Origin: Chloroflexota bacterium
GTDB taxonomy: Bacteria > Chloroflexota > Dormibacteria > Dormibacterales > Dormibacteraceae
Direction: 5' to 3'
NCBI GenBank assembly: GCA_005883575.1
Contig: VBFH01000041.1
Span: forward strand, 1 to 41,453
DNA length: 41,453 nt
The notes beneath the pieces are model-generated. The model searched no databases. It saw nothing but the letters and a program-made list of their open reading frames with translations, and was not told the DNA's origin. Below are positions 10,703-12,014 of the stretch, piece after piece; positions within the stretch are counted from its first letter, which is position 1; each line of letters begins with the position of its first letter. The position numbers and the translations under genes are program-made.

Positions 10703-10790
10703 CGTCCGGCTTCCGGACGACTCTTTTCCCCACTCTGGGGGGAGCTCCCTTCCCCGCTCGGCGGGGAAGCCAGTCCCGTCGCGAAGCGAC
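10703..10790. repeat. Cluster of three small palindromes in a 147-nt gap
   Basis: The gap between the galT start and the next gene holds three perfect stem-loops in a row: 10703-10719 (7-bp stem CGTCCGG/CCGGACG), 10749-10769 (9-bp stem, core TTCCCCGC/GCGGGGAA, loop TCG) and 10778-10790 (5-bp stem GTCGC/GCGAC). None is followed by a T-run. The arrangement resembles REP/BIME-type intergenic palindromes. The third hairpin with its CCCG lead and ACCG trail resembles the leuC-leuD insert at 22.75 kb. No gene is seen in the gap. Confidence 0.5.
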
Positions 10791-10818: not shown

Positions 10819-11265
10819 TTAATCGGCGAGAGCACGATGCACCGCCTCCGCCGGCGTCTTCACCACGTCGAGCCCCTCGACGTCCCACGTGTCGAGCCCG
10901 AATACCGAGCGGCCCAAACGCCGCGCGAGCGCGATCTCGCTGAGCGTGCCCCATCCGGGGCCGATCGCGATCACGCTGTCCGCCGCGGTGACGATCACGG
11001 CATTGCGCGCCTGACCCAGCCCTGTCGCAATCGCGATCGTGAGATGGGCGTTCACTCCACCGCGATCGGAGTCCGGCAGGATGCCGACCACGGTGCCACC
11101 CGCGCCGGCCGCGCCTTCGCTCGCGGCGCCCATCACGCCGCCGAACCCTCCGTTGATGACGACCGCGCCGTTCTGAGCAAGCAGCTTGCCGACCTCGCGC
11201 GCGGCGTCGAGCTGTGATGGCGTTGCCTCGGAGGCTCCGCACACGGCCACGTAACGGCGATGCAT
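10819..11265 (-). CDS. TIGR00725-family LOG-like (Rossmann-fold) protein
   Basis: A 148-residue cytoplasmic protein of the SLOG superfamily, related to the lysine decarboxylase-like/LOG proteins. The N terminus shows AVCGASEATPSQLDAAREVG, then the nucleotide-binding stretch VVINGGFGGVMGAASEGA around residues 36-53. The LOG-type PGWGTLSEIALARR motif is near residue 115, where canonical LOG enzymes have PGGxGTxxE. Length fits TIGR00725 rather than full cytokinin-activating LOG enzymes. Its substrate is unknown; family members probably bind or hydrolyse a nucleotide. It stands alone on the minus strand, divergent from the structured RNA locus next to it. Confidence 0.8.
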   Translation of the reverse strand: MHRRYVAVCGASEATPSQLDAAREVGKLLAQNGAVVINGGFGGVMGAASEGAAGAGGTVVGILPDSDRGGVNAHLTIAIATGLGQARNAVIVTAADSVIAIGPGWGTLSEIALARRLGRSVFGLDTWDVEGLDVVKTPAEAVHRALAD

Positions 11266-11309
11266 CGAGCGAGAAGTTTATTCGGTACTATTTGCGACGA
11301 AGTTCAACG

Positions 11310-11505
11310 CCCGTGGGGCAAGGAGGTGAGGCGAAGCTTGGATAAACCGAGTCGTGGTGCCAGCCGCCTCGTTTGCCAGCTAGGAGTTCGGGAGGACGAA
11401 ACCCTCTAGGGCTTCTGATCCGCTACTCGACTTCTGGAGTCGGAGGCGGTAGCACTGCGAACGTAGACACTTGAGGGTCGGGGCAGTCCCGACCCTCAGC
11501 TTTTT
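11310..11505 (+). ncRNA. Structured RNA leader ending in an intrinsic terminator
   Basis: A 263-nt gene-free stretch with strong RNA-like pairing on the plus strand. Helix GGCAA/TTGCC (11317-11321 with 11373-11377) encloses GAGGCG/CGCCTC (11328-11333 with 11365-11370), which encloses CTTGG/CCGAG (11337-11341 with 11347-11351). A second domain pairs GCTAC/GTAGC (11422-11426 with 11449-11453) around CGACT/AGTCG (11428-11432 with 11438-11442). A perfect terminator follows at once. It could be a free-standing small RNA or a riboswitch-like attenuator for the thioesterase gene, whose ATG is only 23 nt after the T-run and lacks a clear ribosome site. I do not recognise the class. The 5' end is a guess. 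Confidence 0.55.
11472..11505 (+). terminator. Rho-independent terminator
   Basis: An 11-bp perfect stem (11472-11482 with 11488-11498, TGAGGGTCGGG against CCCGACCCTCA) with a 5-nt loop GCAGT, followed by GC and five T. It is the strongest intrinsic terminator in the window. It closes the structured RNA segment and sits directly before the thioesterase gene. Confidence 0.88.
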
Positions 11506-11528
11506 CTCCCCACTACGATTTCACTCTC

Positions 11529-12014
11529 ATGGCCAAGGATTTCTCCGCGCGGTTGAACGAGATGCCCGAGGGCTGGCTTCAGGCGATGGGCGTGACCATC
11601 ACGCTCGCGACCAAAGACGAGGTGCGCGCCGAGCTGATCACGGGCGCCGAGCACATGCAGGGATACGGAATCGTGCACGGCGGCGTGCATTGCGGTCTGA
11701 TCGAATCGCTCGCATCGATCGGCGCCGCGCTCTTCGCGCTGCCGCGTGGGCAGCACGTGGTCGGTCTCGAGAACAACACCAGCTTCATCCGCGCGGTGCG
11801 TGCGGGCGTCAAGCTGCGCGCCGTCGCGACACCAATCAGCCGCGGCCGGCGCACTCAGGTATGGGAGGCCCGGGTCATCGATGAAGACGACCGGGTCGTG
11901 GCCACAGGCCGCGTGCGGCTTCTCTGCCTCGAGGCCGAACAGGCGCTCGCGGGCGAACAGGTCAAGGGGGTCCTGCACCCGGAGCAGACGCCTGGCTCCC
12001 AGTCACATAGCTGA
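11529..12014 (+). CDS. PaaI-type hotdog-fold thioesterase
   Basis: Acyl-CoA thioesterase homologue of 161 residues. The 4HBT/PaaI motif is at about residues 49-59 (GIVHGGVHCGLIES), where PaaI enzymes have HGG followed by a helix with an acidic residue. The later strand segment HVVGLENNTSFIRAV is also typical. It should hydrolyse an acyl-CoA to free acid and CoA; aromatic acyl-CoAs are common PaaI substrates. Two acyl-CoA ligases are elsewhere in the window but not adjacent. No convincing Shine-Dalgarno precedes the ATG, and a terminator ends 23 nt upstream, so expression may depend on terminator read-through or on a leaderless promoter. The last 53 nt overlap the convergent neighbour tail-to-tail. 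Confidence 0.85.
   Translation: MAKDFSARLNEMPEGWLQAMGVTITLATKDEVRAELITGAEHMQGYGIVHGGVHCGLIESLASIGAALFALPRGQHVVGLENNTSFIRAVRAGVKLRAVATPISRGRRTQVWEARVIDEDDRVVATGRVRLLCLEAEQALAGEQVKGVLHPEQTPGSQSHS

Follow-up and report, generated by a model that had tools for sequence, protein, structure and literature searches.

A family-specific structured RNA of soil Dormibacterota with a conserved small reading frame and a predicted switch over its Shine-Dalgarno site

The window, a 41,453-nucleotide stretch of DNA from a Chloroflexota bacterium (GCA_005883575.1, VBFH01000041.1; contig C118 of a 3.6-Mb genome), carries an RNA that, judged by its sequence conservation, is a real and previously undescribed family specific to one uncultured soil Dormibacterota family. 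We consider it rather probable that this RNA is a stand-alone gene encoding a peptide of 22-24 residues, and that it would gate its own translation by means of two folds that exclude each other. Its transcription, its translation and the order in which it folds are all inferred from conservation, covariation and motifs.

The RNA and the signals that appear to bound it are the following.
11286-11291, + strand: the RNA's own putative -10 box, TACTAT, with TAnnnT occupying this position in most homologues; the start site is predicted.
11298-11505, + strand: the RNA, from its predicted start to the terminator T-run, conserved in all sampled family members and without a match in Rfam.
11471-11505, + strand: intrinsic terminator, a hairpin and T5, with a predicted probability of about 1 that is unaffected by a ribosome on the frame.

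Among homologues the -10 box reads TACTAT, TACACT, TATACT or TAGACT and lies 6-8 nt upstream of the conserved 5' end, and the conservation of this TAnnnT box makes it likely that the RNA is transcribed independently, as about 205 nt starting at about 11298. The terminator hairpin (11471-11499, 11-13 bp) is followed by T5 at 11501-11505 and has a predicted probability of 0.89-1.00, whether a ribosome occupies the frame or not; no antiterminator competing with it appeared in the predicted folds. The stretch 11298-11505 is far more stable than its shuffled counterparts (-99 versus -80.2 +/- 5.2 kcal/mol, z -3.63, none of 200 as good). The first-pass annotation had claimed a structured RNA with a strong 11-bp terminator at 11310-11528, and the structure and the terminator are both borne out; the region was also rightly chosen, but the conserved RNA begins slightly earlier, at about 11298.

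Two observations concern the edges of the RNA in single relatives. The terminator hairpin (GGGCCCGGCT..AGCCGGGCCCTCAGCATTTA) is repeated in tandem in the interval from the RNA to the thioesterase gene in two genomes that share the window's genus (L013, about 1690-1830; L014, - strand, downstream of the RNA). Genome G007 (L015 / L108) lacks the conserved promoter region of the RNA, and a SLOG-like gene there nearly abuts the RNA on its upstream side, through either a deletion or an assembly artefact.

By blastn the RNA was found in 34 of 36 genomes of the genus and family, as a single copy in each; the extra matches in G029 and G036 fall at the ends of contigs, as if a single copy had been split in two. 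A covariance model built on 33 sequences and run against 400 genomes of the phylum detected a single copy of the RNA in each of the 23 family members, of which two, from genus g10, had been overlooked by blastn; the other 377 genomes, among them the other families of the same class, gave none. Scanning 84,980 species genomes with a pattern returned 36 stretches, nearly all labelled as Candidatus Dormibacterota or 'Chloroflexi' soil MAGs, and none from viral contigs; a link to phages was rejected on this ground. At the gathering threshold Rfam, including its riboswitch and raiA models, gave no match to the RNA, and at a relaxed threshold only a 10-bit chance match to a human antisense RNA, consistent with the earlier failure to match it to a known riboswitch or small-RNA class. 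The available excerpts of the literature on Dormibacterota non-coding RNA hold nothing beyond soil co-assembly work. Since the RNA occurs in every sampled member of the family, it probably serves something basic in its hosts.

Three elements had been overlooked in the first-pass annotation: a perfect Shine-Dalgarno (SD) sequence, a small reading frame, and a 3' strand, GAGGCGG (11443-11449), that competes with the SD. The first two are located as follows.
11320-11329, + strand: perfect SD sequence AAGGAGGTGA, the complement of the 16S tail GGATCACCTCCTTT, invariant in the aligned homologues.
11338-11409, + strand: small reading frame MDKPSRGASRLVCQLGVREDETL, with a TTG start and a TAG stop, open in all homologues inspected, at 22-24 codons.

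As the window's genome assembly does not include a 16S tail, GGATCACCTCCTTT was taken from relatives, where it was read in six genomes of the family, including one of the same genus. The AAGGAGGTGA motif occurs 11 times in the window's genome (reversed control, 5) and is thus weak by itself; the evidence lies in its conservation. The small frame, of 23 codons in the window, measures only 66, 69 or 72 nt in the homologues inspected, so that its length changes by whole codons, while its flanks shift by single bases: the SD-to-start distance is 8, 10, 11 or 12 nt, and the stretch from the stop to the long hairpin P2 (described below) varies likewise. TAG, TAA and TGA are all used as stop codon and a stop is always present. 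In genus g1 a 7-nt insertion, found in eight aligned sequences, falls just past the in-frame stop, and in g10 the TTG start has moved exactly one codon upstream. Together, the whole-codon frame lengths, varied stops, g1 insertion and g10 start shift point, at the level of sequence, to selection for translation. The peptide, for example MDKPNRGANRLVCQPGAREDVSL, has the core RG..[RH]LVC..G, with CPPG in a divergent clade, has no match in NCBIfam and, read by eye, is charged and hydrophilic without a membrane segment. Residues vary freely at codons 3-5, 9, 14-15 and 17-22, suggesting that the peptide sequence is only partly constrained and that constraint may fall on the RNA instead.

A rival explanation is a purely non-coding structured RNA acting in trans, which might use its perfect SD to dock on the 16S tail, or might pair with mRNAs, with the frame either incidental or serving only to recruit ribosomes. 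The SD core and the strand that pairs with it are more conserved than most codons, third codon positions within helices are fixed as firmly as the others, and the start codon is both weak and far from the SD. TTG is a poor initiator, and a distance of 10-12 nt from GGAGG exceeds the usual spacing. A frame that changes length by codons only, between flanks that change by single bases, a stop that persists although its identity varies, and a g10 start relocated in frame all speak against this explanation, which we regard as unlikely.

In the consensus fold, a 5' hairpin (11309-11319) is followed by a single-stranded stretch containing the SD and by a long irregular hairpin, P2, which consists of P2a (11352-11360 / 11452-11460), P2b (11364-11370 / 11443-11449) and an apical hairpin at about 11383-11416. 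Its elements are listed below, with pairing given as the share of alignment cells.
11309-11319, + strand: 5' hairpin GCCC-gtg-GGGC, 93% paired, with a change from C-G to U-A at one pair.
11352-11360, + strand: 5' arm of P2a (partner 11452-11460), with compensatory changes from U-A to A-U and from G-C to A-U.
11452-11460, + strand: 3' arm of P2a (partner 11352-11360), from the same covariation alignment.
11364-11370, + strand: 5' arm of P2b (partner 11443-11449), 99.6% paired, with one pair changing from G-C to G-U to A-U.
11383-11416, + strand: two-tier hairpin around the stop codon in the minimum-energy fold, its inner helix GGAGG/CCTCT 96% paired.
11428-11442, + strand: small hairpin that offers the apical helix an alternative partner, 98.7% paired, with zero two-sided changes.

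For the 33-sequence set, 98.3% of P2 cells are paired and six pairs are altered on both sides; none of 500 shuffles reaches the observed covariation score, and controls with slid partners are 42-55% paired versus 98%. At one P2a pair, U-A is replaced by A-U in 10 of 38 sequences. The covariation trend was unchanged after addition of the g10 sequences. Covariation, which had been proposed as a check on the structured RNA, is therefore present. Among the individual helices proposed earlier, the second two-tier hairpin is the one at 11383-11416, and of the nested helices GGCAA/TTGCC and GAGGCG/CGCCTC were recovered, while the CTTGG/CCGAG hairpin was dropped because divergent homologues do not conserve it. 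A closing stem between the 5' and 3' ends (GTTC/GAAC) was likewise abandoned, as its pairing is not kept in divergent homologues.

Two strands define the competition between the folds.
11365-11377, + strand: switch strand CGCCTCGTTTGCC, lying inside the frame, with three alternative partners.
11443-11449, + strand: 3' strand GAGGCGG, the rival of the SD for the switch strand, as indicated by covariation and predicted energies.

The switch strand is complementary to the SD (11317-11328), to the GAGGCG that follows the SD (11328-11333) and to the 3' strand at 11443-11449; the 3' arm of the 5' hairpin overlaps the strand used in the SD-hiding fold. Pairing between the switch strand and the SD region GGCAA-GGAGGUG holds in 99.5% of alignment cells, and this helix shows no two-sided changes because it is nearly invariant. 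In the 5' alternative helix, GAGGCG/CGCCTC has become GAGATG/CATCTC in g10, giving two two-sided changes, both from this one lineage, and the g10 switch strand CATCTC still pairs with the SD and, as P2b, with the 3' strand. One strand thus matches three partners, and where it changed, in a single lineage, all three pairings were kept, so that a switch between hiding and exposing a perfect ribosome site can be tested directly.

Folding energies were compared across 39 homologues, four of which carry GTCGGAGG in more than one copy, the correct copy being used. In 29 of the 39, the P2 fold and the SD-hidden fold are predicted to lie within 3 kcal/mol of each other. In the nascent RNA, from which the 3' strand is still absent, the SD-hidden fold is predicted to be preferred in 28 of the 39, with a median probability of 0.88; for the full-length RNA it is predicted to be favoured by more than 0.5 kcal/mol in 10 of 39, so the balance depends on the species. 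During synthesis, CGCCTCGTTTGCC would fold back on the perfect SD and mask it; once the 3' part is finished, the GAGGCGG strand would capture CGCCTCGTTTGCC to form P2, and the SD would be freed for binding by the 30S subunit. Because most of the frame lies in the 5' strand of P2, a translating ribosome would then have to reopen this helix. A kinetic gate of this kind, with the SD masked in the nascent RNA and exposed once P2 is complete, is the simplest reading of the predicted folds, from which we infer the folding order. A more speculative extension, which we hold only tentatively, is that the RNA represents a new self-gated class in which translation of the tiny frame flips the fold, so that the RNA would report ribosome or initiation status and act in trans by way of its freed 3' half or its peptide.

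Peptide coding by bacterial sRNAs is described in the accessible part of PMC5521070. The RNA resembles dual-function sRNAs of the SgrS/SgrT kind in being a unit of about 200 nt with promoter and intrinsic terminator motifs and a small frame with an SD, but its sequence is unrelated and, unlike in those RNAs, most of the frame serves as one strand of the main helix, so that folding and translation would exclude each other. For a Helicobacter pylori type I toxin mRNA, the available excerpt of PMC6733600 describes metastable structures embedded in the mRNA, and the small frame, the SD predicted to be masked while nascent and the long-range refolding are shared with the RNA found here. In contrast to such toxin mRNAs, its peptide is hydrophilic and not a membrane toxin, it occurs as one chromosomal copy in every species, and its full-length fold is predicted to open, not close, the SD in most species. 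By analogy, the RNA may work like a dual-function sRNA with SD masking, as far as its sequence and predicted folds tell.

The gene that follows the RNA was considered as a possible target, and its features are given here.
11514-11519, + strand: putative -10 box of the thioesterase gene, TACGAT, outside the RNA; in most homologues TA[GC][GC]AT stands 6-9 nt before an ATG or GTG.
11529-12014, + strand: PaaI-type thioesterase gene (Pfam 4HBT, 2.1e-16), apparently leaderless, adjoining the RNA and not part of it.

As had been noted in the first-pass annotation, the thioesterase ATG (11529) lies 23 nt past the T-run without an SD of its own; a ribosome site would be absent because the mRNA is apparently leaderless and has its own -10 box. 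The same annotation had suggested that the terminator may act as an attenuator of this gene, making the RNA its leader, and the gene does follow the RNA in most family members, often no more than about 30 nt past the terminator. Adjacency alone proves little, however, as the whole neighbourhood is syntenic across the family (galT-like gene, optional SLOG-like gene, RNA, thioesterase, spermidine-synthase-like gene). The TA[GC][GC]AT box and leaderless start move with the thioesterase gene where extra DNA parts it from the RNA (L014, L023, L025 and L045), and G021 (genus g6) and G034 (g10) carry an intact RNA before a convergent gene, so that two genera keep the RNA without a co-oriented gene behind it. 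With no antiterminator in the predicted folds and a terminator probability that a ribosome on the frame leaves unchanged, attenuation of the thioesterase gene was rejected as very improbable. Translated-leader attenuators share with the RNA a small frame, alternative helices and an intrinsic terminator, but here the terminator lies outside the alternative pairing, two genera have no co-oriented gene and the neighbour has its own promoter motif. The output of the RNA would most likely be the peptide, or the RNA itself in trans, rather than the next gene, and the case shows that a leaderless neighbour can make a stand-alone RNA resemble an attenuator.

A further alternative is a ligand- or drug-sensing leader, either a riboswitch or a nascent-peptide stalling element, whose output would be read-through or RNA stability. 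A bistable predicted fold and a small frame with the core RG..[RH]LVC..G, or CPPG in the divergent clade, would suit such an element, but the Rfam riboswitch models give no match, two genera lack a regulated gene and the terminator is uncoupled from the switch; we consider this explanation improbable.

The genes on either side of the RNA both look leaderless (11265-11280, - strand; 11514-11529, + strand), with the -10-like motifs TAAACT and TACGAT about 9 nt before the start. Since leaderless mRNAs may be common in the lineage, the perfect SD of the RNA stands out. A long inverted repeat, GGGGAGCTCCCTTCCCCGCTCGGCGGGGAAG, lies at 10740-10775, between the galT-like gene and the SLOG-like one.

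A divergent 6S RNA would account for the size of about 200 nt, the single copy and the long hairpin with an internal loop, and the RF00013 model for 6S RNA has no match in the window or elsewhere in its genome. The same model fails to match the RNA, about 45 nt including the SD fall outside the long hairpin, and six family genomes that carry the RNA also hold separate 6S-like loci on other contigs. A 6S identity was rejected on the missing match and this coexistence, is already largely refuted and is in our view extremely improbable. The idea that the RNA replaces a missing housekeeping RNA was also discarded, as SRP RNA, RNase P RNA and tmRNA all lie elsewhere in the window's genome (tmRNA on contig C51, 144 bits). 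The 6S-like loci in the six genomes match RF00013 with E values of 4e-8 to 7e-5, below the gathering score, and include G020:C1:37628-37804, G032:C35:66530-66643, G028:C124:13241-13416 and G053:C69:13646-13758 (L120-L123); these four fall just under the Rfam gathering score and are probably Dormibacterota 6S RNAs missed by the current model.
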